Source: Clostridia bacterium | GTDB lineage: Bacteria; Bacillota; Clostridia; Oscillospirales; CAG-272 | DNA length: 32,164 nt | Assembly (NCBI GenBank): GCA_017938205.1 | Contig: JAGBCA010000060.1 | Span: 1 to 32,164, forward strand | Direction: 5' to 3' | In this document: positions 1,738 to 22,642 of the stretch, piece after piece | How positions within the stretch are numbered: the stretch's first letter is position 1 | Layout: every line of letters starts with the position of its first letter | The notes under the pieces: generated by a model | What the model was told of the DNA's origin: nothing | The model's database searches: none | The model's input: the letters and a program-made list of their open reading frames with translations, nothing else | Program-made: the position numbers and the translations under genes

Positions 1738-1756
1738 AGTATATTCTCCTTAAAAT

Positions 1757-3285: not shown

Positions 3286-3314
3286 ATTATATACTTTTCT
3301 ATTTGGCTTGTCAA
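3286..3314 (-). promoter_or_regulatory. Consensus sigma-A promoter for the hydrolase pair
   Basis: The minus strand reads TTGACA (3314-3309), a 17-base spacer and TATAAT (3291-3286), a perfect match to the housekeeping consensus. The -35 box overlaps the TGA stop codon of the TRAP permease gene. The expected start site near 3277-3280 falls inside the terminator hairpin. Confidence 0.8.
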
Positions 3315-5470: not shown

Positions 5471-5501
5471 GAAAAGGTCCTCCTAACTGCGAGAGTAAAC
5501 T

Positions 5502-5560
5502 AAAAAAGGATACGAGGTCAGAGGATCTACGCATCGGCGCACGGATCACAACGACCTCGT
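5502..5560 (-). terminator. Intercistronic hairpin between TRAP binding protein and permease
   Basis: On the minus strand ACGAGGTC (5560-5553) pairs with GACCTCGT (5519-5512), followed by ATCCTTTTTT. The loop has inner GATCC/GGATC-type pairing. Such a leaky terminator or 3'-end stabiliser would give more binding protein than permease, a common arrangement in binding-protein-dependent importers. Strength is inferred, not measured. Confidence 0.6.
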
Positions 5561-5587
5561 AAAAGAAGAAATTGCAAGAAGCGAAGA

Positions 5588-6863: not shown

Positions 6864-7811
6864 ATGTTTGAAAGCGTTCGCTCCCTGATAGAAAAATACG
6901 ATCGTATCATTCTCCACCGCCATCAGAATCCGGACGGTGATGCCCTGGGCGCACAGCTCGGGCTTTATTATCTGATAAAGGAAAATTATCCGAAAAAGGA
7001 AGTTCTCACCGTGGGAGACGGCAGCCGCCGCTACGGCTTTATGCTGGAAGGCAAGGAACCGGACGCGGTGGAGGATGCGGCATACCGCGATGCCCTCGCC
7101 ATCGTGCTGGATACCTCGGCCGCCGCCCTGATTGCGGACGACCGCTATAAGCTTGCGGCCGCAAGCGCACGCATCGATCATCATATTTTCTGCGAAAGGA
7201 TCTGCGAAACCGAGGTGACAGACACCTCCTTTGAAAGCTGTGCGGGGATGATCGCCGCCATGGCAAGAGAATGCGGCTGGCGCGTTCCGTCCGCTGCCGC
7301 AAAGGCGCTTTACACCGGAATGGTGACCGATTCGGGGCGCTTCCGCTACGATTCCACCACGGCAGAGACCTTCGCGCTTGCCTCCTTTCTGATGCAGACC
7401 CCCTTCTCCACCACGGAGATCTACAAAAATCTATATTCGGACGAGCTTGCAAACGTCAAGCTCCGCGCGCACTTCGTTTCTAAAATCCGGGTGACTGAGG
7501 CGGGTGTTGGCTACATATACACGACGAAGGAGGAGGTTGCCTCCCTCGCGGCAGACACCTTCACGATCTCGCGCGGCATGGTGAACACCATGAGCGATAT
7601 TCGCGGCATTGACACATGGGTGAACTTCACCGAGACGGAGGACGGCGTTTTGTGCGAGATCCGCTCTTCTATGCACAATATCAACCTCATTGCCGTAAAA
7701 TACGGCGGCGGAGGACACAAAAAAGCCAGCGGTGCAACGCTAAAAAACCGCGAGGAGGCTATGGCGCTCCTCGCAGATCTTGACCAAGTAAACAGTGAGG
7801 TTTCCCAATGA
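6864..7811 (+). CDS. nrnA: DHH/DHHA1 phosphoesterase, NrnA family (copy 1)
   Basis: This 315-residue cytoplasmic enzyme has the DHH motifs N22-P-D24-G-D26, VLD83TS and the signature D105-H-H107, then a DHHA1 domain ending in GGGGHKKASG. Members degrade short oligoribonucleotides (nanoRNA) from the 5' or 3' end depending on the family member, and many also dephosphorylate 3'-phosphoadenosine 5'-phosphate; some relatives act on linear or cyclic dinucleotides. The metal-binding Asp/His set looks complete. The ATG at 6864 is chosen because GGAGG lies at 6855-6859 and the promoter -10 ends at 6823. The stop codon overlaps the start of a second NrnA-like gene (ATGA), so translation is probably coupled. 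Confidence 0.9.
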   Translation: MFESVRSLIEKYDRIILHRHQNPDGDALGAQLGLYYLIKENYPKKEVLTVGDGSRRYGFMLEGKEPDAVEDAAYRDALAIVLDTSAAALIADDRYKLAAASARIDHHIFCERICETEVTDTSFESCAGMIAAMARECGWRVPSAAAKALYTGMVTDSGRFRYDSTTAETFALASFLMQTPFSTTEIYKNLYSDELANVKLRAHFVSKIRVTEAGVGYIYTTKEEVASLAADTFTISRGMVNTMSDIRGIDTWVNFTETEDGVLCEIRSSMHNINLIAVKYGGGGHKKASGATLKNREEAMALLADLDQVNSEVSQ

Positions 7812-8788
7812 ATACGGATAAAATGCAAAGAATTATTGACAAAATAGAGGAATACGAGCGAATTATCATCTTCCGCCACTTCCGCCCGGACGGCGATGCC
7901 ATCGGATCAACAAAGGGACTTCAGAGGATACTGCAGCTCTCCTATCCCGAGAAGGATATCCGACTGATCAATGCAGACAGCTCGGATTATCTCGCATTTC
8001 TCGGCGGCGAGGATGCCCCCGTGGAGGACGAGTTTTACAAATCGGCGCTTGCCATCGTGGTAGACACGGGAACGACCGACCGCATCTCCAACAAGAAGTT
8101 TGCCCTCTGCCGTGAGATCGCCAAGATCGACCACCACATTGACGATAAGCCCTACGGCAACGCAGCGTGGATCGAGGAGGAGCGCTCCTCCTCCTGCGAA
8201 ATGATCGCACATTTTTATAACACCTTCCGCGATCGGCTGAAGATCGACAGCGAGGCCGCCACCTACCTCTACACGGGCATGGTGACCGATTCGGGGCGTT
8301 TCCGCTACAGAGACGTTTCGGGCGAAACGATGCGCTTGGCGGGCATGCTGCTGGACGTTGGCGTTGATACCGAACATCTTTACGCAAACCTCTACATGAA
8401 GGAGATACATAACTTCCGATTCCAGGCCGCGGTCTATAAAAAAATGAAGATCACGGAAAATGGCGTTGCTTATCTTCACGTAACCAAGCGGATGAAGAAA
8501 AAATTCGGCCTCACGAATGAGGATGCAAGCGCCTCGGTCTCGTATCTTGATTCCATCAAGGGCTCTCTCATCTGGCTTGCCTTTATTGACGGTGACGACG
8601 GAAAGATCCGCGTGCGCCTGCGCTCGCGCTTCGTGCAGGTGCACGATCTTGCCACCAAGTATCACGGCGGTGGCCACGCCTGCGCCAGCGGTGCAACCGT
8701 TTATTCCAAGGCGGAGCTGAAGGCCTTGGTTGCCGATGCCGATGCACTCCTCAAGGAATATAAGGAAAACAATACGGGGTGGATATGA
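7808..8788 (+). CDS. DHH/DHHA1 phosphoesterase, NrnA family (copy 2)
   Basis: The protein is 326 residues with FRPD28GD30AIGS, VVD86TG, KID108HH110 and a DHHA1 glycine motif HGGGHACASG, so both the DHH and the DHHA1 nucleotide-binding parts are present. It is clearly paralogous to the gene before it (shared stretch TGMVTDSGRFRY) but diverged elsewhere. The two may divide the family's activities, for example nanoRNA cleavage versus pAp dephosphorylation; sequence alone does not say which does what. The ATG overlaps the preceding stop by four bases with GTGAGG upstream, and its own stop overlaps the surE start in the same way. Confidence 0.88.
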   Translation: MNTDKMQRIIDKIEEYERIIIFRHFRPDGDAIGSTKGLQRILQLSYPEKDIRLINADSSDYLAFLGGEDAPVEDEFYKSALAIVVDTGTTDRISNKKFALCREIAKIDHHIDDKPYGNAAWIEEERSSSCEMIAHFYNTFRDRLKIDSEAATYLYTGMVTDSGRFRYRDVSGETMRLAGMLLDVGVDTEHLYANLYMKEIHNFRFQAAVYKKMKITENGVAYLHVTKRMKKKFGLTNEDASASVSYLDSIKGSLIWLAFIDGDDGKIRVRLRSRFVQVHDLATKYHGGGHACASGATVYSKAELKALVADADALLKEYKENNTGWI

Positions 8789-9528
8789 AGGTACTGATCA
8801 CAAACGACGATGGCATTCTTGCCCCCGCTCTCCCCGCACTTATCTCGTTCGTGCAGAGCTTTGCCTCTGAGGTCGTCGCAGTTGCGCCCAAGGTGGAGCA
8901 GAGCGGCATGAGCCACGCCATAGATTTCACGCGCCCGATCGAGATCAAGCGCGTGGACGTTGCCCCCGGCGCAAGATGCTACTCCATGGACTCCACGCCC
9001 GCAGATTGCGTGCGCTTTGCGGTGCTGGGGCTGAAGGAGCACTTCGATCTCGTGATCTCCGGCATCAACCGAGGCTATAACCTCGGAAAGGATCTCGTTT
9101 ATTCGGGCACGGCGGGCGCGGTCTTTGAGGCCGCAAGGCTCGGCATCCCCGGCATTGCGATCTCCACAGGCTTTCACGATAGCGCCTTCGCGCTTGCTTC
9201 CCTGCCCTCGCTTCTTGCGTACTTTAAGGAAAACGGGCTGCTTGAAAAGCATCCCCTTTATAATATCAATATGCCTGAGGCCGCACCCAAGGGCGTGCGC
9301 ATCACGCGCCAGGGCGGTATCTATTATACGGACGAATTTAAGCAAACCGCCCCCGAGATCTACGAGCAGGTGGGCGAGCCCGCAAAGCAAACGGATCTTG
9401 ATCCCGAAGCGGATATCATAGCACTTTCCGAGGGCTACATATCCATCACACCCCTTTCTGCCACTCGCACGGACTTTGCCGCTTTAGAAAGAATAAAAAT
9501 CAAGAAATCATTTCAAAGCAAGCTTTAA
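8785..9528 (+). CDS. surE: 5'/3'-nucleotidase SurE
   Basis: This 247-residue cytoplasmic metal-dependent phosphatase removes 5'- or 3'-phosphates from nucleoside monophosphates and can trim short polyphosphate. It has the SurE opening MKVLITNDDG with metal ligands D8 and D9, S40 in VEQSGMSHA, SGIN95RGYN and YSGTAGAVFEAA, all hallmarks of the family. Length is typical. I place the start at the ATG at 8785 rather than the GTG six bases upstream, because the family usually begins directly at this strand and the ATG overlaps the previous stop (ATGA). Position after two NrnA-type enzymes makes a coherent chain from oligonucleotide to mononucleotide to nucleoside. Confidence 0.93.
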   Translation: MKVLITNDDGILAPALPALISFVQSFASEVVAVAPKVEQSGMSHAIDFTRPIEIKRVDVAPGARCYSMDSTPADCVRFAVLGLKEHFDLVISGINRGYNLGKDLVYSGTAGAVFEAARLGIPGIAISTGFHDSAFALASLPSLLAYFKENGLLEKHPLYNINMPEAAPKGVRITRQGGIYYTDEFKQTAPEIYEQVGEPAKQTDLDPEADIIALSEGYISITPLSATRTDFAALERIKIKKSFQSKL

Positions 9529-9552
9529 GGGGTTGTATACCATTTTAAGCAA

Positions 9553-9608
9553 AAGCCTCCGTCTTTGTTCCATGATGGAATAAACAAAGACGGAGGCTTG
9601 TTTTTTTT
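9553..9608 (+). terminator. Strong terminator after surE
   Basis: A 17-bp perfect stem pairs 9553-9569 (AAGCCTCCGTCTTTGTT) with 9583-9599, and the loop carries a small nested TTCCAT/ATGGAA element. G and eight T follow at 9601-9608. On the minus strand the stem is followed by TTTTGCTTAAAA, so it may also end the convergent lipoprotein gene at 9639. Confidence 0.9.
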
Positions 9609-9638
9609 ATGTTTTTTGGTAGTTTTCAAAAAGGCCGC

Positions 9639-10901
9639 TCACGCGGCAAGGAGCTTCTTTCCGTATTCCTCGGGAAGCAGGAAGACCGCAGAGGCCACGG
9701 CATCGCCAAGCGATTCGAGCGTGCCGAAATGCACCTCAATATACGGCGTGGGCTTATAATCGTACTTGCTTGAGATCGTGCCGCCGCCTGTAATATTGCC
9801 GAACATCTCGCCCCAGCCACCGAAGTAATTCAGATATTCCTGAAAATCGTTGTAGTGGTTATAGGTATAAAAAACGTGGTGCTCACCGCGCTCATACACG
9901 CCGTTGCCGTTCAGATCGTATTTTCCGTACACGATGCGAGCCGCGCCGCGCGTGATATTCATGCCATTGTTATACAGAGCGCAAGGAAAGCTCGGATCGC
10001 AGTCCGTTCCCGTTGTTCCTATATCCAGCTCCATATAGCGGAGACTTCCGCCACAGCCCATAATATTGGGCAGCACGGGCTGATACGGATAACGGCTTGT
10101 ATTTCCCGTAAAGCTTGTATGATTGACGCGCAGATACTCGCCCCATTCACTGTTTCTCGGCTGATCATCCTTGTCTGCGGAATAATTGGCAGGCACGTCG
10201 CCAAAGGCAAACACGTACGCCGCAACCTCCTCCAAGGTGATATATGCACCGCCGTAATACACAGTGAACACCGCCGTGCCATGCGAATCCACGACCGTAT
10301 AGGCATTGCCGCTCTCGGAATAATAGGTGCTTGTGTTGCGCAGATATTTTCCGCCCACCATGGGACGGTTGCTTGCGATCGTTGGGGCTTGATCGGGCGT
10401 TTCGAGCATACCGGACATCAGATTGTGTCGGCTGCGGTGATACGCATCCCAATAGCTTTTTGCAGGGGTATAATCGGCATAAAACGCCTCTACACTCACG
10501 TCCTTATACGGATCGTAGAGCGGGCCTGCCGCAATGCCGCCATCACCCGTGGCGGGCGGCGCAGACGACTTTTCCACCACGCGCACCTGCACGCTGTCCG
10601 AGAAGCCGGAGATCTCTGCCCGCACCTCGGAGAGGCCTACGCGCAGACCGAGAATACAACCCGTATCCGTCACCATGACCGCATCGTTGGTGGCACTCCA
10701 GGTGATATACGCGGCATCCTCCGCACTTAAATTGGTCGTCAGCCGATGCTCACCCTCCACCTCCACCTCAATGCTTTCCGCACCAAGGATGGAAAAGCTC
10801 TCGATCTTCGGCCCACCCGATCCCCCGCCGGGAATCGAGCAAGAAACAAGCAAGACCATAACAAGCAGAAGGCTGATTATGGATAATATTTTGTTCCGCA
10901 C
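9639..10901 (-). CDS. Lipoprotein with Big2-like and barnase-like ribonuclease domains
   Basis: The protein is 420 residues. A signal peptide ends in LLVSC (Cys21), followed by a Gly/Pro linker. Residues 32-110 resemble a bacterial Ig-like Big2 domain (ITWSATNDAVMVTDTG, GLSEVRAEI). Residues 220-360 match the barnase/guanyl-ribonuclease pattern: EVAAYVFAFGDVPANY at 225-240, then E291 in YMELDI, R322 in GAARIVYG and H349 in YTYNHYNDF, the same order as barnase E73, R87 and H102. Two insertions distinguish it, one around 243-285 and one (NGNGVYERGE) between R and H. I infer a surface-anchored RNase. Start is GTG, preceded by GAGGAAAAG; an ATG 14 bases upstream is out of frame. It has its own promoter and no linked barstar-type inhibitor, which an exported enzyme with a tight export route may not need. 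Confidence 0.72.
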   Translation of the reverse strand: MRNKILSIISLLLVMVLLVSCSIPGGGSGGPKIESFSILGAESIEVEVEGEHRLTTNLSAEDAAYITWSATNDAVMVTDTGCILGLRVGLSEVRAEISGFSDSVQVRVVEKSSAPPATGDGGIAAGPLYDPYKDVSVEAFYADYTPAKSYWDAYHRSRHNLMSGMLETPDQAPTIASNRPMVGGKYLRNTSTYYSESGNAYTVVDSHGTAVFTVYYGGAYITLEEVAAYVFAFGDVPANYSADKDDQPRNSEWGEYLRVNHTSFTGNTSRYPYQPVLPNIMGCGGSLRYMELDIGTTGTDCDPSFPCALYNNGMNITRGAARIVYGKYDLNGNGVYERGEHHVFYTYNHYNDFQEYLNYFGGWGEMFGNITGGGTISSKYDYKPTPYIEVHFGTLESLGDAVASAVFLLPEEYGKKLLAA

Positions 10902-10933
10902 TTTCTTTTCCTCATGTATCGTCGATATATATA

Positions 10934-10962
10934 ATTATATATCTTTTTGCTCTGTTTGTCAA
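10934..10962 (-). promoter_or_regulatory. Consensus sigma-A promoter of the barnase-like lipoprotein gene
   Basis: The minus strand reads TTGACA (10962-10957), a 17-base spacer and TATAAT (10939-10934). The -10 region sits in an alternating AT stretch. The spacing to the GTG start leaves a leader of about 25 bases. Confidence 0.8.
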
Positions 10963-10986
10963 TGGATGCAAGGCAGAAGAAGGAGC

Positions 10987-11019
10987 AAAAAGAACCACGC
11001 CCGAGGGCGTGGTTCTTTT
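10987..11019 (-). terminator. Bidirectional terminator after the multi-OB surface protein gene
   Basis: AAAAGAACCACGCCC (10988-11002) pairs with GGGCGTGGTTCTTTT (11005-11019). On the minus strand the stem closes on a CTCG tetraloop and ends in five T. It separates the long minus-strand operon from the independently promoted lipoprotein gene downstream. Confidence 0.85.
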
Positions 11020-11045
11020 GTTTGGGTATTGTTCAGCCAAAGATA

Positions 11046-14000
11046 TTATTCTGCAGCAGGAGCCGTGTACGTAATTTCAATGCTGCTGATGTAAATCTGA
11101 GTGGTAGAACCCGTAATTACGTTCTGAAGCTTAAAGGAATCAGAGTTGATATCCACTTCCCAAGTGGTGGAAGAACCGTCAAACGTAGTGGAGGTTTCGC
11201 CCACGGTAAGCTGACAATTCTTGTTGTTAGAAGAGTTCGTAAAGGTAACCTTAATGGACTTAATGGTATAGCCCTCAGCAATGGTAACGGTGAAGTAGGA
11301 GCCAACACCGGTGTCTCTTTTACCGTAAAGTCTGATTTGACCAGCCTGATTAAGACCACAGTTATTATTGGTGTCACCCTTATCGCCAATCACGCTAAAG
11401 ATTGTGGCATCCAAGCCAACGGTGGCAGCATCGTTGTTTCCGGTCATATTGGTGGTTTCAGCAGTGGTATATGCCATCGTTACGGTATTGGTATCAACCA
11501 CTGCCGCGCCTTCTACATATCCGCAAACGGAGCAAACGCCCTGAACCATATCGTGATCTGCATAATCGCCGATCTTGGTTCCGCAAACTACGCACTCAGC
11601 CTTCTTCTCACAGGTCGCCTCAGTGTACTGCGAGCAAACGTGTACTTCGTGCTCGATAAGAGATGCAGCCACGAACTGTGCAGAACCGTTGTGAGAGGAA
11701 AGAACACCATAAATCTTAATGGTATCGTATGCAACGGGCTTAACCTCCATATCCTTGTACTGGGTACCGCCGTTGCCCTTCTCACCAAGGTAAAGTCCAT
11801 AAACGGTGATGGTGTCCGTACCGTCGGTGATATACATATTACCATATGTGGTATTGTATACGCTGGTAATCATACCGGTTACGTAATACTTCTCCGTGGT
11901 AGTAGTCAGCACGCCGATCTTAAGCGCATCTGCGATAGAGATCGTAGCACCGTCCTCGGGAAGAACCAAACCGGTGCAGCCGCCACGGTCACACTTGAAG
12001 TCACCGTTCTCGTCCAGGTGGCCAAGAGCATCAACCTCATCGTCGGTGTAAGAATCGGTGCAATTGCAGGTGTAGGTGGTGTAGCCCTTCGCGGTACAGG
12101 TGGGATCCGTTACTACAGGGGTATAGGTATGCTGATGGTTAGAAACACCGCAGCCGGGGCGATCACAAATGCCGTCAACGAAGTTGTGTTCAAGAGCCGC
12201 GGTCTCGCTATCCGTGTAGGAATCTGCGCACCACTTGCAGGTATGCGTGGTGTAGCCCGCTACGCCGCACTTGGGAGCGGTAACCTCGTCGATGTAGTTA
12301 TGCTGGAGCCAGCCGCTCTTCATCTGCGTGGAGTAGTAATGACCGATCTTACCGTAAAGGGTGATCGTATCGCCAACGGCAGGCTTGGTTCCTGCAAGGT
12401 TCTCAAAGCGGATGTCACCGGTCTTATCGTAGATACCGTAAACGTAGAGATCGTTGGTTCCGTCGGTAAGATAAATATTACCGTACTTCAATGCGTTCGT
12501 ATCATCCTTGAAGCTCTTGATCGTACCGGTTACGTAATACTTATTGTCGGTATAATCGTCATTTTCCGTGAAGAGTGCGCCAAGCGCAAGTGCCTGCTCG
12601 ATCGTAAGAACGGAATCTGCAGCAGGAATAAACTTCTCGGTGCAGCCATCAAAGTCGCACTTGTAGTCGCCGTTCTCGTCCTTGTGGTTCACGATCTCGG
12701 TCTCTGCGCCGATGTAGGTATGGCCGCAGGAGCAGGAGAAGGTGGTGTAGCCCTTTGCAGAGCAGGTGGGAGCGGTCACAACCTCGGCGTAGCTATGCTG
12801 GTGGTTGGGATCGATCGGCTCACCGCAACGGTCACACTCGTTGTCCACGGTCTCGTTGAGGTGACCAAGAGAATTGGTCTCTGCGCCGGTGTAGGTATGG
12901 CCACAGGAGCAGGTGAAGGTGGTGTAACCGCCCGTAAGGCATCCGGGCTCGGTTACAGTTTCGGTGTAGCTATGCTGGTGGTTGGGATCGATCGGCTCAC
13001 CGCAAACGTCGCACTCGTTGTCCGCGATGTCGTCCTTATGGCCGAGAGCATCCTGATAATCATCCTTATAGGAATCGTTGCAGGAGCAGGTATAAAGGGT
13101 GTAGCCCTGCTCGGTGCAGGTGGGAGCTACAACGGTCGTCTGATAAGAGTGCTCGTGATCCTCGGCAACCTCAAAGGTGTAGAGGCAAGCAACGTAGTTC
13201 ATGGAAACCTTCGTATCGTTGGAAATAGAGAAGGTGGTGAAATCATTGTAGGTATTGATATAATACTTGGCACTGGTTTCTGCGGAGGTGTAAACCAGAG
13301 TATTATAGGTGGTATCGAAGGTGAAGTACTCTTCGGGAGCCTCGGTAATGAGCTCAAGGCTACCGGACTTGCTCGATGCAGTACGCTCATAAACGCGGAT
13401 GTAGGTCTTGGCTTCGCCATTCATGAAGTACATTCTGAACGCACCGTCCACGCCCTCAACAGCCTCAAGGTATACCAGCGTGGAAGCTGCTGCATCCTCG
13501 GTGCTGGCAAGGCGGTAGGTTACAGATTCGCTCTCGGTTGCGCCTGCGAAATAGAGCTTCTTGTTAAGAGTAAGCTGGTTCAGACGGAAGTAGTAGCCAA
13601 CGCCGGTCTGGGGAGCGGTTACGAGAACGTAGCCGTCAGACTCTTCCTCGACAGCCTCACCGGGAGTCGTATAAAGAGCGATCTTCTCAATACGAACCTG
13701 CGAAAGAAGTGCTGCAGAAACGAAGGAGGTAACATCCTCTTCAAAAGAGATAGTAACTATGTTGTTCTTACGGGTAATGGTTGCGCCCTCAACGGTCATA
13801 CCGTCAAAGCCCGTAATGTAATCGCTGTTGTTATACAGAACGAATACGATACGGCGGAAGGCAGATTCTGCCTCGATGGTGATCGTGGTGTGCTTGAACG
13901 CACGGGTAGCAAGGGTGCTTCCCTCGGTTGCATTGTAAAGAGCGTTCGTCTGCTCGGTGCCTCTGTCGTTGGTGTAGGTGATACCGTTTCCGGAGTGCAC

Positions 14001-15344
14001 GATCTTGTCCTCGGCGTACGACACGCGCGTGGTGGTGCCGGTCAGATCAAGCTCAATACCGCCCTCTTCGGCACCCTCTTCAACGTAATCCTCGCCGTTG
14101 AGCTTCAGAAGCGTACCGTCCTTCATCTGAGGATCGTCATACTTACCGATCACGCCCTTGACGGTAACCGTGTCACCAACTACGGGCTGAGGATCCATTG
14201 CATCGTATCTGGTGTTGTTCGCGGTGTAGAGGCCGTAAATGAGGATCTCCTTCTCGCCGTCGGTGATCAGCATATTGCCGTACTTCGTGCTGGAGATATT
14301 GGTGATCTCACCGGTGATCACGAACTTACCGGTGGAGTAGCTGTCCTTCTTGAACTTGTTACCAAGCTCGATCGCCTCTGCGATCGTGAGAGTGGAGCCG
14401 TCTGCGGGCTCGATGATCTGATCAAACGTGGGGTTGAGGGTGGATGCCTTGTCCGCCTTAACGAACTGAACGGCAAACTGCTCCTGGTTTGCAACTGCCT
14501 CCTCGGTCATAAACGAGCCCTCGGAGAGAGATGCGGTCGGATAAGAAGCGTGCGTTCCGATGCAGAACTCAGCGTTATCGATCATCGTGAACCAAGCGCC
14601 AACGTTCTGCTTGTGGTAGAATACGGCAGCATCGGTGGTGGAGAAGCCGAGATACTTGCTCGTCTTATCCTGGTTGTTTTCATCTTTGTAGGTCTCGATG
14701 TAGGCGTTTACGTAATTCTTTACGCCGTCGATCATGGTAAAGAACTTATAGCCGCCCTCTACCTTCTCAACCTGATAGATCGCGCCGTTTGCTGCGCCTT
14801 CGGCGCCTTCGATGAACTTATTCGCACCGTCTTGCGTTGTGTTCGTGAGGAACAGAAGCTTACGAAGCGAATACTGCACGATGAAGAGCTTGTAATCAAC
14901 GCCCTCCTGCGGCTCGGAAACGATCAGCGTATTGTCGTCGCTGATCACGGGAACCTTGCGGGTGAATTCCTTCGTTACCGTTTCGCCATCTGCATTCTTG
15001 ATGGTGGCGATCAGCTTGTAGGTGAAAGCGGTCTCATTGGTCGTGGGGATATCCACCGTCCAATAGCTTTCCTTGGCGCTCTTAACGATCTTAACCTTTT
15101 CGTTGTCGGTCTTCCAGGTTACCTCGTAGGTAACGCCTTCAACTACGACCTTTGCAACAACGTCAAAGTCATAAAGGTTTTCTGCGCCTTCCTTATCCTT
15201 CATAATGTTATGAAGGAAGTTTGCGGCTCCCGTCAGTGCCTCGTCCGGCTGCTCTTGCTGTTCGCGCCACTCGGAGCCGAAGCAAGCAGTCAGCATGGAA
15301 AGACACATCGCCAGGAGTATGAGGAGAGATAATGCTTTTTTCAT
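11046..15344 (-). CDS. Giant multi-OB-fold surface lipoprotein with Cys/His modules
   Basis: The protein has 1432 residues. The signal peptide ends in MLTAC (Cys21), so it is a membrane-anchored surface lipoprotein. Three similar OB-like modules start near residues 315, 910 and 1131, each with '.LTI.EA..LG', 'YYVTG.I', 'YGN..ITDG' and 'VYGLY'. Two related beta domains lie near 145-305 and 570-735. Six or so Cys modules of the type H.H.Y...V..PTC...GYTT.TC.C...Y, ending in D.NGD.KCD, occupy about 735-900, 1015-1120 and 1241-1281. A beta-sandwich module lies near 430-560 and another at the C-terminus (1281-1432). No catalytic motif is recognised. OB modules of this kind are often attached to secreted nucleases, which fits the nuclease gene 75 bp upstream. 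AAAGGG precedes the ATG. Function beyond binding or scaffolding is unknown. Confidence 0.82.
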   Translation of the reverse strand: MKKALSLLILLAMCLSMLTACFGSEWREQQEQPDEALTGAANFLHNIMKDKEGAENLYDFDVVAKVVVEGVTYEVTWKTDNEKVKIVKSAKESYWTVDIPTTNETAFTYKLIATIKNADGETVTKEFTRKVPVISDDNTLIVSEPQEGVDYKLFIVQYSLRKLLFLTNTTQDGANKFIEGAEGAANGAIYQVEKVEGGYKFFTMIDGVKNYVNAYIETYKDENNQDKTSKYLGFSTTDAAVFYHKQNVGAWFTMIDNAEFCIGTHASYPTASLSEGSFMTEEAVANQEQFAVQFVKADKASTLNPTFDQIIEPADGSTLTIAEAIELGNKFKKDSYSTGKFVITGEITNISSTKYGNMLITDGEKEILIYGLYTANNTRYDAMDPQPVVGDTVTVKGVIGKYDDPQMKDGTLLKLNGEDYVEEGAEEGGIELDLTGTTTRVSYAEDKIVHSGNGITYTNDRGTEQTNALYNATEGSTLATRAFKHTTITIEAESAFRRIVFVLYNNSDYITGFDGMTVEGATITRKNNIVTISFEEDVTSFVSAALLSQVRIEKIALYTTPGEAVEEESDGYVLVTAPQTGVGYYFRLNQLTLNKKLYFAGATESESVTYRLASTEDAAASTLVYLEAVEGVDGAFRMYFMNGEAKTYIRVYERTASSKSGSLELITEAPEEYFTFDTTYNTLVYTSAETSAKYYINTYNDFTTFSISNDTKVSMNYVACLYTFEVAEDHEHSYQTTVVAPTCTEQGYTLYTCSCNDSYKDDYQDALGHKDDIADNECDVCGEPIDPNHQHSYTETVTEPGCLTGGYTTFTCSCGHTYTGAETNSLGHLNETVDNECDRCGEPIDPNHQHSYAEVVTAPTCSAKGYTTFSCSCGHTYIGAETEIVNHKDENGDYKCDFDGCTEKFIPAADSVLTIEQALALGALFTENDDYTDNKYYVTGTIKSFKDDTNALKYGNIYLTDGTNDLYVYGIYDKTGDIRFENLAGTKPAVGDTITLYGKIGHYYSTQMKSGWLQHNYIDEVTAPKCGVAGYTTHTCKWCADSYTDSETAALEHNFVDGICDRPGCGVSNHQHTYTPVVTDPTCTAKGYTTYTCNCTDSYTDDEVDALGHLDENGDFKCDRGGCTGLVLPEDGATISIADALKIGVLTTTTEKYYVTGMITSVYNTTYGNMYITDGTDTITVYGLYLGEKGNGGTQYKDMEVKPVAYDTIKIYGVLSSHNGSAQFVAASLIEHEVHVCSQYTEATCEKKAECVVCGTKIGDYADHDMVQGVCSVCGYVEGAAVVDTNTVTMAYTTAETTNMTGNNDAATVGLDATIFSVIGDKGDTNNNCGLNQAGQIRLYGKRDTGVGSYFTVTIAEGYTIKSIKVTFTNSSNNKNCQLTVGETSTTFDGSSTTWEVDINSDSFKLQNVITGSTTQIYISSIEITYTAPAAE
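12701..13054 (-). repeat. 177-bp in-frame tandem duplication inside the surface protein gene
   Basis: Two 177-bp units (59 codons) lie at 12701-12877 and 12878-13054. They include a 40-base perfectly identical block at 12789-12828 and 12966-13005. Each encodes one Cys/His module with the GEPIDPNHQHSY linker. Because the unit is a multiple of three, loss or gain by recombination would keep the frame. Confidence 0.8.
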
Positions 15345-15419
15345 GATCTTGCCCTTTCTTTTTTTGTTTTATAGTGTTTTTTTAAAAACGCAAATTGAAA
15401 AATGAAGATTTTCGAAAAA

Positions 15420-16940
15420 TCAGCGTACGTTGAAGTCCCCCAAGGTGTAAGCCTTGATCTGATACTTTCCTTCGCCGTCCTCGGGCTGGTAGAACTCCAC
15501 GATGCCCTTCACGTCGATCGTTTTGTTTCTGAAATAGCTTGCGGTAACGAGCTCGCCGTCGCCGTCCTTGAGAACTGCGGTGCGGATGCTGATCACGGTG
15601 CCGTCCTCGGCCGTGCAGGTCAGCGTCATTGCGCCGTAATCGTCACTCGAGGTGTTGGAGGTGGTGTAAACGCTCGTGACGTAGAGATCCTTCATCGAAA
15701 CAGAGGAGGAAACGAGCAGCTGTGCGCTATTGAAGGTTACATATTTCTCGTAGCTTTCGCCTGCTTCATCCACCTTAGTAACGGGGATGGTCACGTCCTT
15801 TTCAAAATCCGCAGGATCGATCTCGGTGAACAGAGGCGTGTTGCCCTCGGAGAGAACCACCGTGTTTGCGGGATCCTCGGGGCGAAGAGGCTTATAGGTC
15901 AGGTTGGAGATCTGATAGGTGCCGAAGAAGCTCTGCACCGTTCCCGTGATGCGAACGCGGTTGCCCTGCGCAAGCTTGGTATTCAGGCCCGAAATATAGC
16001 CGTAGAATACCTGGATGCCGTAGGAGCGGTCGGTCACGGCGTCGTAGTCCTCCACGTACACCGTCCAATCGCTGTTGTGCACGACCGTGCCCTCAACCAC
16101 GACGTTCAGACCCTCGTACTCGGTGATATTGGTGCGCAGCTCCTTGAGCGAGACCTCAACGGCCTCGTCATAGGGGAAGGTTTCATCCTTATCACCCGAG
16201 AAAATGTAAAGGCTGTATGCCTTTGCCTGTGCCATAGCGGCAACGCAGGAGGCACCGTAGCGGCCCTCGGAGGAGGATGCGCCGCGGCCAAGTCCCTCCT
16301 GGAGAAGCTCCAGGTTCAGGCAGCGGTATTCCGCATCCGCCGTAGGCTTATACCAGATCCAGAGCAGGTATCTGCCGTTGCTGTCCTGCTCCCAGCTTGC
16401 GCCATCCGACTCAATGATGATCGAATGGGCATTTTCAAGCTTCGATTTGGTGAAATTCGAGGCGGGCTTACCCCATTCCTCGATCTTACCCGTGGATTCG
16501 GGTGTGTTTACGCCGAGATATCTCGCCTTGGCAATTCCGTTCGTTCCCAAGGTGGAATTGAAGTGTGTGGTATCACCGTCGATCAGATACTTAACGGTGA
16601 CCTCCTCCTTCAGCGTTTCGGAGCTCATGTCCAGCTTCGTCTGTGCAACGTAGTCCACCCACGCAGGCATTTCTGCGCCGCAGATGTCGCACATACCGTT
16701 TCTATCCGCACTCTTATGCGCTCTGCAAACGGACAGGGTGGTGTAGCAAATATCGCAGACACCGTTTTTATCCTCGTCCTTATGCGTAGCACACGGCTCA
16801 ACCGCCGCGGAGCAAACGTCACATTTTCCGTCGCGGTCCGCATCCTTATGCTGCGCGCAGGTCTGACAAGCGGCAAGAAGAGTTACTACGGTACAAAGCA
16901 GAAGAAGCAGGGACAGAAAGCGAAGAGAAATTCTTTTCAT
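15420..16940 (-). CDS. Staphylococcal-nuclease-like lipoprotein with OB domains
   Basis: The protein is 506 residues. The signal peptide ends LLAAC (Cys25). Residues 28-90 contain three repeats of the form C..HKD.D.NG.CD.C, which combine Cys pairs with an Asp-rich calcium-loop-like stretch. Residues 114-245 match the SNase/thermonuclease domain: ID121GD123TT, R140 in ARYLGVN, N145-T-P-E148, and R190 in NGRYLLWIW, corresponding to nuclease D21 (D123), R35, D40 (here N), E43 and R87. The three catalytic residues R, E, R are present; the Asn at the D40 calcium-ligand position also occurs in other family members. Two OB-like segments follow, near 260-350 and 375-505. I infer a surface nuclease. 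It follows the importer binding protein by 40 bp with no terminator visible, so it is probably in the same transcript. Confidence 0.87.
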   Translation of the reverse strand: MKRISLRFLSLLLLLCTVVTLLAACQTCAQHKDADRDGKCDVCSAAVEPCATHKDEDKNGVCDICYTTLSVCRAHKSADRNGMCDICGAEMPAWVDYVAQTKLDMSSETLKEEVTVKYLIDGDTTHFNSTLGTNGIAKARYLGVNTPESTGKIEEWGKPASNFTKSKLENAHSIIIESDGASWEQDSNGRYLLWIWYKPTADAEYRCLNLELLQEGLGRGASSSEGRYGASCVAAMAQAKAYSLYIFSGDKDETFPYDEAVEVSLKELRTNITEYEGLNVVVEGTVVHNSDWTVYVEDYDAVTDRSYGIQVFYGYISGLNTKLAQGNRVRITGTVQSFFGTYQISNLTYKPLRPEDPANTVVLSEGNTPLFTEIDPADFEKDVTIPVTKVDEAGESYEKYVTFNSAQLLVSSSVSMKDLYVTSVYTTSNTSSDDYGAMTLTCTAEDGTVISIRTAVLKDGDGELVTASYFRNKTIDVKGIVEFYQPEDGEGKYQIKAYTLGDFNVR

Positions 16941-16980
16941 TTCTTTATCCTACCGTATAAATGTTTTGATCGTTTAAAAA

Positions 16981-18402
16981 TTACTGACCGGACTGATATT
17001 TACATTCGGAGACCGCATTTGCGAAGGTGCTCTTGATGAAGGCATCGATCTCCGCGTCGGATGCCTTGGAGGCAAAGCATGCGGAGAGAAGAAGTCCTAC
17101 CTGATCACGCGCTACGGAGGAGCCGATGAATGCGGGAGATGCATAGTAAGACTCTGCCTGCGCGAGAGCCATCTGCACGCCGAGAGCCTGCACGTTGGAG
17201 GTGCCTGCGGTTGCAAGCCATTCCTGATAATGCTCATTCTCGATCGCGGACTTGATAACGGGCGTGTAGCCGTTGTTCATGGAAACGGATGCCTGGAAGT
17301 TGATATCTGTGGTAAGGAACTTCACGAACAGCCAGGAGGCGAGAACCTCTTGGGGATTGTTCTTCTTGAATACGCAAACGGAGGGGCCCTGGGAGATAAC
17401 CTTGGGCGCATTGGGGTTGATCTGCGGGATCTGTGCCACGCCAACCTCAAACTCGTATACACCGTTCACCTGCTCGGGCTGCTGATAAACCGTACCGCCC
17501 GTAGAGCCGATGCACATATAGGAACGCGTGCCCGTGGTAGCCGTACCGGTGAAGAGGTTCGAGGTGTAAGCGTTACTGTTCAGCGTCTTGGTGGTAACGA
17601 GCTTGTCCTGATACCAGGAGCGGAATCTCTTCACGAAGGCATAGTTTTCCGCATTGTCAAAAACGAAGTTTTCGCCGGTTGCGGAGGTGTAGGGAGAGCC
17701 AAGCTGCTCACACATGGTGATAAACCAGTTGGACTCGGAGTCGTAGCCGAGAGGAATGCACTTATCGCCTTCCTTTGCCTTGATCGCACGGCAAACGGCT
17801 TCCATCTCGTCCCAGGTGGTGGGAACGTCGAGATCGTTTTCCTCAAAGTAGGTCTTGTTGTAGTACAGCACCTCGGTGGACTTGGAGAGCGGCAGAGAGT
17901 ACATCTTGCCGTCACCGAATGCGGCACCCTCGGCAAGCCAGCCTGCAACGAAGTCTGCCTTCTGCTCAGCCGTGAAGCCGTAGGTCGCATCGTTCATCAG
18001 AATGTCCAGCGTCTGCACCGCGCCTGCCTCGTTATAGAGAGCCACGTGGTCGGGATAGCAGTACGCAATGTTGGGCTGATTGCCAACGGCAACCTCGGTC
18101 TTGATCTGATCGCGAACGCCGTCGTAATCGCCGAAGGACTGATGCTCAACGGTGATGTTGGGATACAGCTTCTTGAAGTCTGCAATGGCATCGTCAAGGA
18201 TGTCACGCAGGCCCGCGCCCATCGAGTGGTAGAAGGTGATGGTGATGGGGGTGTTCGTGTCAAAGCCGCCGGCAGGCATTTCAAAATCTGCCGCCGCGCC
18301 GCCGCCACCGCCGGTTCCGCCACCGCCGCAGGAGGTCAGAGAGCCGCAAACGCCAACCGTAAGGATGGCAACGAGAAGAAGTGTGGAAAGAATGCGTTTC
18401 AT
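16981..18402 (-). CDS. ABC transporter family 1 solute-binding lipoprotein
   Basis: The protein is 473 residues. The signal peptide ends SLTSC (Cys25), followed by a Gly-rich low-complexity linker. The mature part opens ITITFYHSMGAGL and continues IADFKKLYPNITVEHQSFGDY, NQPNIAYCYPDHV, PLSKSTEVLYYNKTYFEENDLDVPTTWDEMEAVC and PSVCVFKKNN, which is the family 1 extracellular solute-binding pattern. The FYHSMG opening resembles UgpB-type glycerol-3-phosphate binders as well as oligosaccharide binders, so the ligand is open. It is the fourth gene of an ATPase-permease-permease-binding protein operon. AAGGAAA precedes the ATG. Confidence 0.93.
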   Translation of the reverse strand: MKRILSTLLLVAILTVGVCGSLTSCGGGGTGGGGGAAADFEMPAGGFDTNTPITITFYHSMGAGLRDILDDAIADFKKLYPNITVEHQSFGDYDGVRDQIKTEVAVGNQPNIAYCYPDHVALYNEAGAVQTLDILMNDATYGFTAEQKADFVAGWLAEGAAFGDGKMYSLPLSKSTEVLYYNKTYFEENDLDVPTTWDEMEAVCRAIKAKEGDKCIPLGYDSESNWFITMCEQLGSPYTSATGENFVFDNAENYAFVKRFRSWYQDKLVTTKTLNSNAYTSNLFTGTATTGTRSYMCIGSTGGTVYQQPEQVNGVYEFEVGVAQIPQINPNAPKVISQGPSVCVFKKNNPQEVLASWLFVKFLTTDINFQASVSMNNGYTPVIKSAIENEHYQEWLATAGTSNVQALGVQMALAQAESYYASPAFIGSSVARDQVGLLLSACFASKASDAEIDAFIKSTFANAVSECKYQSGQ

Positions 18403-18435
18403 AACAAATTTCCTTTTCTATATGATTTTTTTGGA

Positions 18436-19365
18436 TTAACCCTTGATACCGCTTCGGGAAACGCCCTTCATAATATACTTGCGAAGGAATACGAATACGA
18501 GGAAAAGCGGTGCGGAAACAACGGCGATCGCCGCCATCTGCAGCGGCACGTCCGTTACACCCTCCGCAGAGGTAAACGCCGTACGCAGACCGTTCGTGAT
18601 CAGGCGGTGCGCTTCGTCATTCGCAACGAGGCGCGGCCACATATAGGAGTTCCACGAGCCCATCATCTTAAGGATCGTGATGGAGATCAGCGTGGGAAGC
18701 GCCAGGGGGATCATAACCTTCCAAAGATATTTCAGGTCGGTCGTTCCGTCCACCTTCGCGGCCAGGTACAATTCGTTGGGCACCTGCTGGAAGTTTTGCT
18801 TCAAAAGATAAATATAGAACACACTCACGAGGAAGGGCACGATCAGAACCGTGAAGGTATTGAGCCAGCCAAAGCTGTTGACCGTCTGATAGTTGGTGAT
18901 CGTGAAGAGCTCGCCGGGGATCATCATCGTGGCAAGCAGCGCCGCGAAGAGCAGGTTCTTTCCCTTAAACTCAAGGCGTGCAAAGGCGAAGGCCGAAAGC
19001 ACCGTGATGATCAGCGAAAGCAGCGTGGAAACAACGCCGACGAAGAGCGTGTTTGCAAACAGCTGTCCAAGCAGCAGATCCTCGTTCTGGAACACCTCCA
19101 CGTAGTTGTGGAAATCCCAGGTGTGCGGGATCAGCGTGGGAATCGGGCGGATATACTCGGGCATAGTCTTGACCGAGGACACCAGCATCCAATAGAACGG
19201 AAAAAGAACGATCAGCGCCATCACTCCAAGAAAGAGATAAAGCGCAGTTTGAACACAAATCTTTACAATTTTTTGCTTTGCAGAAACCTTTTGCATATCC
19301 CGCTCCCGCATCGTTTGCAGGGTGGCAGCGGAGGTCTCCGATACGTTTTTCGTTACTTCGGACAT
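18436..19365 (-). CDS. ABC transporter permease, MalG/UgpE type
   Basis: This 309-residue inner-membrane protein has about six membrane segments after a 35-residue charged N-terminus. The EAA loop that docks on the ATPase is visible as AAKVDGTTDLKYLWKVMIPLALP. An FPFYWMLVSSVKT segment after the first helix is typical of MalG-type permeases. Its SD sequence AAGGAGGTG overlaps the stop codon of the preceding permease gene, implying tightly coupled synthesis of the two subunits. It forms the translocation pore as a heterodimer with that permease. Confidence 0.94.
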   Translation of the reverse strand: MSEVTKNVSETSAATLQTMRERDMQKVSAKQKIVKICVQTALYLFLGVMALIVLFPFYWMLVSSVKTMPEYIRPIPTLIPHTWDFHNYVEVFQNEDLLLGQLFANTLFVGVVSTLLSLIITVLSAFAFARLEFKGKNLLFAALLATMMIPGELFTITNYQTVNSFGWLNTFTVLIVPFLVSVFYIYLLKQNFQQVPNELYLAAKVDGTTDLKYLWKVMIPLALPTLISITILKMMGSWNSYMWPRLVANDEAHRLITNGLRTAFTSAEGVTDVPLQMAAIAVVSAPLFLVFVFLRKYIMKGVSRSGIKG

Positions 19366-19377
19366 TTCGGCACCTCC

Positions 19378-20406
19378 TTAATAGTGGGTTTTCTTTTTGC
19401 TGACGTAGAGGTTGATCATCGTAACCACCAGGATGATCACAAAGAGGATCAGAGCCGCGGCCGAGGCCGTTCCCTCCTGGTTGCTGATCGCGCGGTAGAT
19501 AAAGCCGACCATCGTATCCAGCGTATAGGTGGGATCACCCGGCGCTCTCATGCTCTCGCCGAACACGCCGACGATCGAGGAATATTCCTTGAAGCCGCCG
19601 ATAAAGCCCGTGATGATAACGTATGCCAGCATGGGAGAAAGAAGCGGGATCGTGATACGGGTGAATACGCGCCAGCGCGGCGTGGCATCCACCTTGGCCG
19701 CCTCGTAATACTGCTTGTTGACGGATTGCAGACCGCCAAGCAGGATCAAAATCTTGAAGGGCAATGCGTTCCAGACGATATACACCACCATGACGGTGAT
19801 CATCGCCCAATACTCCGCGCCCTCGTTCATCCAGTTGATATATTCTCCGCCGAGCGCCTCGATCACGATGTTAACAACACCGATGAAGTCCGGGCGCGCG
19901 CCGCCGCCGATGATCATATTGAACATTGCGGCGAACACCATGCCGATGGCAATGGAGTTGGTTACGTACGGAAGGAAGAAGATCGTCTGCAAGGCTCTCG
20001 AAAACCACTTGATGGAATTGAGGCAGACCGCGATCAGAAGTGCAAGGAAGGTGGAGATCGGCACGGTCAGCACCGTGAGAAGCATCGTGTTCTTCAACGC
20101 CGTCAAAAAGCCCTTGTATTCAAGAACGCGCGTGAAATTGCCGAGGCCGAAGGAAAACGTATCGCCGCGCACATCCTTCATCGTGGTGTATCCCTCAAGG
20201 AAGGCCATACGGACGGTGTTGAAGATCGGCCAAACCGTGAAGATCAGAAGAAGCACGATCGCAGGCGCAAGATAGATCCAGCCCTTATAGCGATCGAATT
20301 TTTTATAGAGGATATTAACGCAGAAGCCCTGCCATATTTTCTCTTTGAAGAAGGCCGAGATGCTCTGCCATACCCTCCCAAGGAGAGTAGCGTTTTTCTC
20401 TGCCAT
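19378..20406 (-). CDS. ABC transporter permease, MalF/UgpA type
   Basis: This 342-residue permease has a first membrane segment at about 46-68 (GWIYLAPAIVLLLIFTVWPIFNT) and the EAA loop YYEAAKVDATPRWRVFTRITIPLL, which identifies a carbohydrate-type permease. I use the ATG at 20406, preceded by CGAGGTG, rather than an upstream in-frame start that would overlap the ATPase gene by 15 codons. The ATPase stop codon ends one base before this start. The last segment is followed by a short basic tail (SKKKTHY). Confidence 0.93.
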   Translation of the reverse strand: MAEKNATLLGRVWQSISAFFKEKIWQGFCVNILYKKFDRYKGWIYLAPAIVLLLIFTVWPIFNTVRMAFLEGYTTMKDVRGDTFSFGLGNFTRVLEYKGFLTALKNTMLLTVLTVPISTFLALLIAVCLNSIKWFSRALQTIFFLPYVTNSIAIGMVFAAMFNMIIGGGARPDFIGVVNIVIEALGGEYINWMNEGAEYWAMITVMVVYIVWNALPFKILILLGGLQSVNKQYYEAAKVDATPRWRVFTRITIPLLSPMLAYVIITGFIGGFKEYSSIVGVFGESMRAPGDPTYTLDTMVGFIYRAISNQEGTASAAALILFVIILVVTMINLYVSKKKTHY

Positions 20407-20407
20407 T

Positions 20408-21511
20408 TCACTGCACCTCGAAATAGATTCTTTCCTCGGTCTCCTTATCAAAGAGGAAGACCTTGTGCGGCTTCAGGGTGTAGCGGATCTGCTTCTGATC
20501 GGGAGCCACGCTGTAATCCGCATCCACGATGGAGCGCACGCTCGGCGTCAGCATCGCGGCGTTTTTCGAAACGATGCTCACGTCACGGCCCATCACGTCA
20601 ACGCCGAGGATCTCGCAAGAGAGGCCGCCGTTTTCATCCGGGATAAAGCCCTCGGGACGGATGCCAACGTATACGGCCTTGTCCGCAACGCCGGGCACGG
20701 AGAGCACGCACTCACCGCCGATATAAAGCTTCTCTGCCTTGACCTCACCCTCAAACACGTTGATGGGAGGCGTTCCGAGGAACTTTGCAACGAAGAGGTT
20801 GCAGGGATCGTCATAGATCTGCTGGGGCTTGCCCGTCTGCTGCACAACACCGAGCTTCATAACCACGATCACATCGGAGATGGACATTGCCTCCTCCTGG
20901 TCATGCGTTACGAAAATGGTGGTGATGCCGGTCTCCTTCTGGATCCTGCGGATCTCCTCACGCGTCTGCAGGCGCAGGCGTGCATCCAGGTTGGAAAGCG
21001 GCTCGTCAAGAAGCAGAACGCGCGGCATTTTTACAAGCGCACGCGCAATGGCAACACGCTGCTGCTGACCGCCCGAAAGCTCGCTGGGCTTTCTGTCCAT
21101 CAGCTCGTCGATCTGCACGAGCTTTGCCACCTCGTAGGCACGGGCGAGCATTTCCTCCTTGAGAAGCTTGTCCGCTCCGCGCAGGTTCTGCAGCGGGAAA
21201 AGAATATTCTGCTTCACCGTCATATGCGGATAAAGCGCATAGTTCTGGAAAACGAGACCGATGCCGCGGTTCTCGGGCGTCAGCTCCGTTACGTCCTCAT
21301 CACCGAAAAAGATCTTTCCGGAGGAGGGCTTCTGCAGGCCGCTGATCATATAGAGCGTGGTGCTCTTTCCGCAGCCGGAGGGGCCAAGCAGACCAACCAG
21401 CTTGCCGTCCGGAATGGTGAAGTTGAAATTGTTCACCGCAACGACCTCCTCGCCGCTCTTCTTATTGCGGCTGGGGAAAATTTTCGTAAGATTCTGCAGC
21501 TCGACTTTCAT
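20408..21511 (-). CDS. ABC transporter ATP-binding protein, UgpC/MsmK/MalK type
   Basis: The protein is 367 residues. The nucleotide-binding domain has Walker A GPSGCGKST (43-51), a Q-loop at Q89, signature LSGGQ (145-149), Walker B VLLLDE (165-170) and switch H203 in VTHDQEEA. The C-terminal 120 residues or so form a TOBE/MalK-like regulatory domain (VGIRPEGF). The ATG at 21511 has GGAGG immediately upstream and lies downstream of a clear promoter, so an upstream in-frame start at 21601, which would precede the transcription start, is excluded. As first gene of the operon it is directly exposed to control at the palindrome at 21566-21586. Enzymes of this type often energise more than one sugar importer. 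Confidence 0.95.
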   Translation of the reverse strand: MKVELQNLTKIFPSRNKKSGEEVVAVNNFNFTIPDGKLVGLLGPSGCGKSTTLYMISGLQKPSSGKIFFGDEDVTELTPENRGIGLVFQNYALYPHMTVKQNILFPLQNLRGADKLLKEEMLARAYEVAKLVQIDELMDRKPSELSGGQQQRVAIARALVKMPRVLLLDEPLSNLDARLRLQTREEIRRIQKETGITTIFVTHDQEEAMSISDVIVVMKLGVVQQTGKPQQIYDDPCNLFVAKFLGTPPINVFEGEVKAEKLYIGGECVLSVPGVADKAVYVGIRPEGFIPDENGGLSCEILGVDVMGRDVSIVSKNAAMLTPSVRSIVDADYSVAPDQKQIRYTLKPHKVFLFDKETEERIYFEVQ

Positions 21512-21601: not shown

Positions 21602-21630
21602 ATTATAACATATGAAAACAGAAATTGCAA
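21602..21630 (-). promoter_or_regulatory. Promoter of the ABC importer operon
   Basis: The minus strand reads TTGCAA (21630-21625), a 17-base spacer and TATAAT (21607-21602). The region 21587-21682 is AT-rich and otherwise featureless. The leader to the ATPase ATG is about 85 bases and contains the palindrome at 21566-21586 and a further GGGAGG/CCTCCC-type hairpin around 21546-21562. Confidence 0.75.
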
Positions 21631-22580: not shown

Positions 22581-22613
22581 GGTATACCTTCCCTTACAAG
22601 CTTCTATAAAATC

Positions 22614-22642
22614 ATTGTAGCACAAGTGCCGCATTTTTTCAA
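22614..22642 (-). promoter_or_regulatory. Promoter of the RDD gene
   Basis: The minus strand reads TTGAAA (22642-22637), a 17-base spacer and TACAAT (22619-22614), with TG one base before the -10 giving an extended -10 element. Confidence 0.7.

Follow-up and report, generated by a model that had tools for sequence, protein, structure and literature searches.

Nucleic acids form an abundant food source in the gut, and the locus described here raises the question of whether some gut Clostridia possess a dedicated set of genes for eating them and, if so, in what form the digested polymer enters the cell. It lies in a stretch of 32,164 nucleotides (hereafter the window) on contig C55 of the 2.36 Mb draft genome of a Clostridia bacterium (G000; GenBank assembly GCA_017938205.1). 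Read along the minus strand between 22634 and 9639, in that order, the window codes for an RDD-family membrane protein, an ABC ATPase, two permeases, a solute-binding protein (SBP), a lipoprotein with a staphylococcal nuclease-like (SNase) domain, a 1432-residue lipoprotein with OB-like repeats and a barnase-like protein; facing this importer block on the plus strand are two genes for NrnA-type phosphoesterases and one for SurE. An original prediction, made from the DNA alone, had read the interval 6864..21511 as a possible extracellular nucleic-acid foraging locus. All the open reading frames (ORFs) that it named are present where it placed them and its genes do lie within that interval, but the conserved unit extends past it, to the RDD gene at 22634. 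Based on the comparisons presented below, we propose that the locus is very likely to be devoted to the utilization of nucleic acids, whatever the cargo of its importer.

Conservation of the importer-nuclease unit

An alignment of nine SNases was used as the query in a scan of a named species collection, which yielded 372 SNase relatives, of which the best 80 loci were kept. Counts out of 80 refer to these loci, those over 79, 74, 71, 70 and 68 take in only genes without contig-end truncation, and those over 50 concern downstream neighbors in the loci with at least 8 kb of downstream sequence. As the loci were selected via SNase similarity and many of them are related, the adjacency counts should not be taken as independent events. 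Within this sample the gene for the SBP lies directly upstream of that for the SNase in 79/79 loci, and further upstream follow, in order, those for permease E (73/74), permease A (70/71), the ATPase (69/70) and the RDD protein (67/68). Directly downstream of the SNase gene, an OB-type lipoprotein, recognized by similarity, is encoded in 75 of 79 loci; in the four lacking a clear OB neighbor the position is taken by three lipoprotein-like ORFs lacking a clear match and by one unrelated ORF. The original prediction had been staked on the SNase and OB genes not being absent beside this importer in relatives, and the opposite of such an absence is what the comparison uncovered. Judged by gene order, the importer, SNase and OB-type lipoprotein thus belong to a tight unit, and together with the clustering of NrnA, SurE and salvage genes this conservation speaks for the foraging interpretation.

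The unit is patchily distributed at closer range and reaches beyond the family at longer range: SNase orthologs (more than 100 bits) occur in 7 of the 35 same-genus relatives searched, and a survey of 391 genomes drawn from the class recovered, beyond the window's own family, four genomes in three other families. The order importer-SNase-lipoprotein is kept in three of these loci (L247, L248 and L250, the SBP of the last sharing only 32% identity); in the remaining one (L249), which is cut by a contig end, the SNase and lipoprotein genes face those for a fused NrnA-NrnA protein and SurE. A ruminant gut site is named in the titles of 50 of the 80 loci, the other 30 naming none of these.

At least one nucleotide- or nucleoside-related gene besides the two nucleases, NrnA2 and SurE included, is found in 53/80 loci (E 1e-10, no identity floor). 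Among such neighbors, each named from one representative, are a UshA-like 5'-nucleotidase near 16/80 loci and an HD protein, perhaps a dGTPase, near 9. A fusion of an NT5C 5'-nucleotidase to a guanylate kinase (L132:558-1670), likewise named from one representative, was seen near 20/80 loci, and in 14 loci a same-strand ORF of the size of this fusion is located directly upstream of the RDD gene.

The nucleases and lipoproteins of the cell surface

The SNase-like call for the minus-strand gene at 15420..16940 is borne out by a match to Pfam PF00565 (37.4 bits against a cut-off of 21) and by the profile of the family, which matches staphylococcal nuclease at E 1e-11. D121, D123, T124, R140, E148 and R190 are invariant in 81/81 sequences (the window and the 80 loci), and we take these to be the catalytic residues by motif and, in part, by the known roles of residues in staphylococcal nuclease. 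The C-terminal region of this predicted surface lipoprotein has a sub-threshold OB match (18.4 bits against 27). The adjoining gene (11046..15344, minus strand) codes for the 1432-residue lipoprotein, with three repeats that resemble one another (residues 318-422, 912-1016 and 1134-1238; E 4e-14 to 1e-19 among them), for which lipoprotein we propose a role in the capture of nucleic acids. Its description as a multi-OB surface lipoprotein holds as regards the ORF, the three repeats and the lipobox pattern, while its OB identity comes from one Pfam match, on the first repeat, just below the cut-off (25.4 against 27 bits). No lamin-tail domain was detected in it with Pfam. A simple lipobox pattern is matched by all four surface proteins.

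The gene at 9639..10901 (minus strand) is predicted to encode a further surface lipoprotein, with a C-terminal RNase domain. With 16.2 bits it falls below the cut-off of 24 for PF00545, and we therefore call it barnase-like only; all 13 aligned barnase-like proteins, that of the window included, match this model weakly (E up to 10, best 5.7e-4). By hhalign, their profile aligns with that of six canonical clostridial barnases at 98.7% probability and E 2.9e-16 (one of the six has a match to barnase itself at E 5e-23 or better), and E291, R318, R322 and H349 are invariant in 13/13, presumably playing the parts of the Glu, Arg, Arg and His of barnase. Against PDB sequences the same profile (E up to 10) returned five matches, none of them a barnase, the best two being on the Ig-like N-terminus, where Big_2 is found in 6/13 proteins. 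The predicted structure of the domain is poor (mean pLDDT 55), and a barnase fold from structure prediction was accordingly dropped as evidence. The barnase-like call thus stands by profile comparison and conserved residues, with the Pfam cut-off missed. The gene is an accessory of the locus with a promoter-like site of its own, being present in 12/80 loci (10/50 of those with sufficient downstream sequence), and such a protein occurs in 6 of the 35 same-genus relatives. Barnase-like homologs in G022 (L073:5152-6711) and G012 (L074:14957-16306) contain a domain resembling the repeats of the big lipoprotein, so that domains are shuffled between the proteins of the locus; the resemblance was tested on the same protein as found in L106.

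The importer and its predicted ligand

As originally predicted, the transporter is complete: a family 1/8 SBP (16981..18402), two BPD permeases and a MalK-type ATPase are encoded in one operon on the minus strand, which makes it an importer of the CUT1 type. Permease A, of the UgpA/MalF type (19378..20406), and permease E, of the UgpE/MalG type (18436..19365), match PF00528 with 69 and 59 bits, respectively. The MalK/UgpC-type ATPase (20408..21511) matches Pfam ABC_tran with 131 bits and the UgpC model with 338 bits, below the cut-off of 432, its match to the MalK OB domain also being just below cut-off (25.3 against 27 bits).

By both sequence and fold, the nearest solved relative of the lipoprotein SBP is an ABC protein of T. 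thermophilus (PDB 7c0f series), which, according to the PDB titles, was crystallized with the dinucleotide UpG. A T. thermophilus dinucleotide (UpG)-binding ABC protein was reportedly described by Chandravanshi in the FEBS J in 2021. Eight positions were mutated in the Thermus PDB entries, and from the titles of these mutants we infer that they are ligand contacts; six are invariant across 59 SBPs of the loci in a multiple alignment, and position 246 varies among these SBPs, the extent to which the pocket as a whole is kept depending on the alignment. The original prediction had cautioned that sugars or glycerol phosphates are the usual ligands of family 1 binding proteins, a doubt that is eased because the nearest solved relative holds a dinucleotide. 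We propose that the SBP is a binder of dinucleotides or short oligonucleotides. Two further indications were discarded, namely K174 as a sign of a phosphate pocket, the same lysine being shared by the Thermus protein and distant CUT1 proteins, and similarity to the P68 lipoprotein as a link to mycoplasmas, that model matching CUT1 SBPs broadly (42/398 genomes, none over cut-off).

A paralogous CUT1 importer, with an SBP about 30% identical (L200-L209, L074:1-4406 and L099), was observed in the same genus and in other families; in several loci it is followed by a gene for a short OB-type lipoprotein, and in G012 it immediately precedes the nuclease locus. As the paralogous importer also has such lipoproteins, of which one of two tested passes the Pfam cut-off, the OB lipoprotein was dropped as proof of nucleic-acid use. 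We also noted relatives of the SBP with long N-terminal extensions of up to about 890 extra residues (L084:1575-5498, L081:7413-9848 and L080:2-1861); no importer permease or ATPase was recognized in the fetched stretches, one of which starts at a contig end. They were set aside as informative fusions, Pfam on L084 having given no informative extra domain.

The NrnA-SurE module and nucleoside salvage

The back-to-back operon of the original prediction is present as a plus-strand triad of two DHH-DHHA1 phosphoesterases (copy 1, 6864..7811; copy 2, 7808..8788) and the 5'/3'-nucleotidase SurE (8785..9528; TIGR00087, 169 bits against a cut-off of 135). Both copies exceed the cut-offs of PF01368 and PF02272, and the NrnA motif residues are conserved in 39 aligned sequences of copy 1 and 40 of copy 2; since they miss the cut-off of 350 bits of the NrnA equivalog model NF053633 (229 and 256 bits), we call them NrnA-type only. 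NrnA-like enzymes of three Firmicutes favor RNAs of 2-4 nucleotides, and B. subtilis NrnA cleaves a DNA dinucleotide as well (PMC9757072). A single protein of 666 residues (L249:396-2396), from a different family within the class, combines both NrnA-type proteins, which suggests that the pair might work as one unit.

All three genes are present in 35/50 loci, NrnA2 and SurE each in 36/50, and over all loci in 39/80 and 40/80, respectively. Where NrnA2 is present, the triad is adjacent in 36/39 loci and the NrnA2 and SNase genes are on opposite strands in 37/39. Within the genus, a close NrnA2 (>60% identity) occurs in 8/9 genomes that have the SNase or the barnase-like gene, and in 3 of the remaining 27. 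Across loci, the pairwise distances of NrnA1, NrnA2 and SurE correlate with each other (rho 0.54-0.60), as do those of SNase, SBP, permease E and RDD (0.46-0.65). The ATPase is odd, correlating at 0.45-0.57 with NrnA and SurE, 0.34 with RDD and 0.14-0.20 with SNase, SBP and permease E, and the correlations of the OB lipoprotein, comparable in at most 16 loci, are 0.18-0.37.

Salvage genes in the 80 loci were recognized by BLAST to reference genes from G002, G011 and G012, each of which scores above cut-off with one or more NCBIfam models (thymidine kinase, DeoC, DeoD, DeoB, cytidine deaminase, pyrimidine-nucleoside phosphorylase and uridine kinase). Such genes are linked to the unit in a minority of loci (19/50; 19/80 overall); in G012 a thymidine kinase gene sits between the barnase-like gene and NrnA1, and in the window genome a Tdk-DeoC-DeoD-DeoB-Cdd-Pdp cluster is located on another contig.

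A proposed pathway and its alternatives

Gene content and order, the intact catalytic residues and the kinship of the SBP to the UpG-binding protein are what can be read directly from the sequences; what the nucleases do, which ligand is bound, in which direction the flux runs and what part the OB protein plays are predictions from them. The lipid-anchored SNase would cut DNA and RNA at the cell surface, with the barnase-like RNase assisting in some species, and the multi-OB lipoprotein would keep the polymer close to the membrane. The CUT1-type importer would then take up dinucleotides or very short oligonucleotides, which the paired NrnA-type enzymes would cleave to mononucleotides inside the cell; SurE would strip these of phosphate, and the nucleosides would pass to the deo/salvage pathway (Tdk, DeoD, Pdp, Cdd, DeoB and DeoC) to furnish bases, carbon and phosphate. 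The products of SNase are 3'-phosphorylated mono- and dinucleotides and barnase leaves 3'-phosphate ends; these end products, along with the preference of NrnA for 2-4-mers, fit such a path. We consider the chances of this route from surface nucleases to nucleoside catabolism to be about evenly balanced, and the broader statement that gut Clostridia eat DNA and RNA as dinucleotides, with a dedicated ABC importer feeding those released by surface nucleases to a paired NrnA, to fall a little below that.

Several observations weigh against this pathway or parts of it. The SBP is only 21-22% identical to the Thermus protein, N81 of the Thermus pocket is replaced by D with a change of charge, a single-sequence alignment shifts three of the eight pocket positions by one residue relative to the multiple alignment, and UgpB is a close second in fold score. 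The paralogous importer has the same pocket in 12/12 cases, mostly with no recognized locus-type nuclease alongside, so the pocket does not by itself prove a link to the nucleases. Most loci are without a barnase-like gene, and an extra SNase copy at a contig end in G001 (L079), outside the 81 aligned, has Ser at the R190 position. Pdp is not enriched in carriers (6/9 against 13/27 other genus genomes; E up to 1e-30). The triad occurs in G017, G029 and G034, all without an SNase ortholog, G013 has triad and SNase on different contigs, and the distances of SNase and SBP correlate weakly with those of NrnA1, NrnA2 and SurE (0.10-0.22). In light of these weak correlations and of the triad in genomes without an SNase ortholog, NrnA-SurE is a second, semi-independent module that is a frequent partner of the tight importer-SNase-OB unit. 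The single foraging set originally envisaged therefore holds for importer, SNase and OB lipoprotein, with the barnase-like gene as an accessory and NrnA-SurE as a module apart.

Within the foraging interpretation, the importer might instead carry nucleosides or mononucleotides, with NrnA and SurE being housekeeping enzymes that are often nearby. The hardly correlated distances would agree with this, as would the UshA-type nucleotidase near some loci, which would yield nucleosides outside the cell, and uptake of nucleotides or nucleosides has been proposed in the mycoplasma and Izemoplasmatales papers cited below. A further point against dinucleotide import is that surface and cytoplasmic nucleotidases are both found nearby, which keeps nucleosides and nucleotides in contention as cargo. 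Yet the nearest solved binding protein holds a dinucleotide, the substrates of NrnA are 2-4-mers and the NrnA-NrnA-SurE set lies near 35/50 of the loci with enough downstream sequence, and we regard this variant as rather unlikely. Import of glycerophosphodiesters, as by UgpB, or of sugars, in an operon for general scavenging with the SNase as a passenger, appears distinctly improbable in the face of the unbroken adjacency of the SBP gene to an SNase with intact catalytic residues and of the salvage genes frequent nearby.

Barnase folds occur in secreted toxins, and the nucleases could conceivably be weapons of competition or defense, or serve to dissolve biofilm or host traps, rather than to feed. 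Surface nucleases of mycoplasmas do dismantle extracellular traps, according to a review (PMC9740415). The canonical barnases of G023, G027, G030, G042, G050 and G054 adjoin barstar, whereas no barstar gene is present on the window contig (four are elsewhere in G000) or in the six other genomes, all draft, that had a strong barnase-like match among those searched (G001, G002, G006, G011, G012 and G022). This, together with the lipobox patterns and the tight tie of the nucleases to an importer, makes a role as weapons or in dissolving biofilm or traps very improbable, and we retain feeding on nucleic acids, perhaps as dinucleotides, as the preferred interpretation.

Gene spacing and other features of the window

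The RDD-family protein that opens the conserved unit is encoded at 21816..22634 on the minus strand (PF06271, 32.9 bits against a cut-off of 24.1). With starts set from homologs, the gaps from the ATPase gene through that for the OB lipoprotein are 1 (ATPase to permease A), 12, 33, 40 and 75 bp, followed by 144 bp to the barnase-like gene. The claim that no terminator separates importer, SNase and OB genes agrees with our scan, in which no minus-strand terminator-like site was found in the gaps between the SBP, SNase and OB genes; such sites do fall inside genes. By consensus match, a promoter-like site precedes the ATPase gene (21602..21630, minus strand; TTGCAA-17-TATAAT, 10/12) and a sigma-70-like one (10934..10962, minus strand; TTGACA-17-TATAAT, 12/12) lies just upstream of the barnase-like gene, which, in view of this site, is probably transcribed on its own; a terminator-like hairpin (9634..9647, minus strand) is placed at the end of that gene. 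As the totals are near shuffle expectation (17 promoter-like sites against 12.4, sd 3.3, and 17 terminator-like sites against 15.8, sd 4.3), all these sites are leads only.

Elsewhere in the window, two closely similar tandem serine hydrolases are encoded at 256-3235, the second matching Pfam Beta-lactamase and the first compared by eye only, followed at 3311-6616 by a TRAP transporter with an NMT1-like binding protein that also matches Pfam Phosphonate-bd and with another 12/12 promoter-like site by its genes (6679-6651). On the far side, a 211-residue protein without a Pfam match (22985-23620) adjoins NadE and is 92-93% identical in L100 and L102. Rfam at gathering thresholds gave zero matches in the window.

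Implications and comparison with known systems

The locus offers a concrete and testable path from polymer to metabolite, and it suggests that dinucleotides, not nucleosides, may be what the importer carries. Judged from titles and abstract openings, we found no literature description of a dedicated nucleic-acid feeding locus in gut Clostridia, nor, from these and part of PMC12718374, any published account of dinucleotide feeding. If the proposal is right, dinucleotide feeding would be a new route of nutrient uptake, and the paralogous importer, which shares the pocket and occurs in further families of the order too, would represent another such route; the Thermus-type dinucleotide-binding family would gain a role in nucleic-acid feeding, and NrnA would serve catabolism in addition to housekeeping.

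The surface nuclease YhcR of B. subtilis combines OB-like domains and an SNase domain with a fused 5'-nucleotidase; OB-like and SNase domains are thus common to both systems, the UshA-type nucleotidase being here a separate gene near some loci. Relative to the Thermus 7c0f protein, most pocket positions of the SBP are conserved or conservatively changed at an overall identity of 21-22%.

Putative loci for the degradation of DNA or nucleic acids have been reported in Izemoplasmatales (Wasmund 2021, PMC8289736; X. coldseepsis, PMC8397711; Hujiaoplasma nucleasis, PMC10470597), and what follows refers to the portions of these reports consulted. In H. nucleasis the locus codes for NrnA as well as for a ribonuclease that is extracellular; supplying DNA plus RNA raises the expression of many of its genes and improves the growth of the strain (PMC10470597). 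Clustered extracellular nucleases, phosphoesterases and an ABC transporter are common to those loci and ours. Phosphate transporters feature in two of the three reports, EddB in one and a lamin-tail protein in one, and a Pfam scan of 15 window proteins gave no phosphate permease above cut-off; conversely, a CUT1 importer akin to a UpG binder, paired NrnA-type proteins with SurE and an OB lipoprotein, all seen here, do not figure in those descriptions. In a mycoplasma, MAG_5030-5070 encodes, on one transcript, a lipoprotein with an SNase domain, a binding lipoprotein predicted to be of the sugar type and an ABC importer, for which import of nucleotide precursors has been proposed (PMC3585158; review PMC9740415). 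Both systems, as described, combine SNase lipoprotein, binding lipoprotein and ABC importer, whereas the barnase-like protein, NrnA pair, SurE, RDD and OB lipoprotein are present here and not in the parts consulted of the mycoplasma descriptions. The present locus is thus a variant of nucleic-acid-degradation loci already published in Izemoplasmatales and mycoplasmas, distinguished by a CUT1 importer resembling a dinucleotide binder, by the combination of two NrnA-type enzymes with SurE, by the OB lipoprotein and by its wide presence in Clostridia, largely of the ruminant gut.

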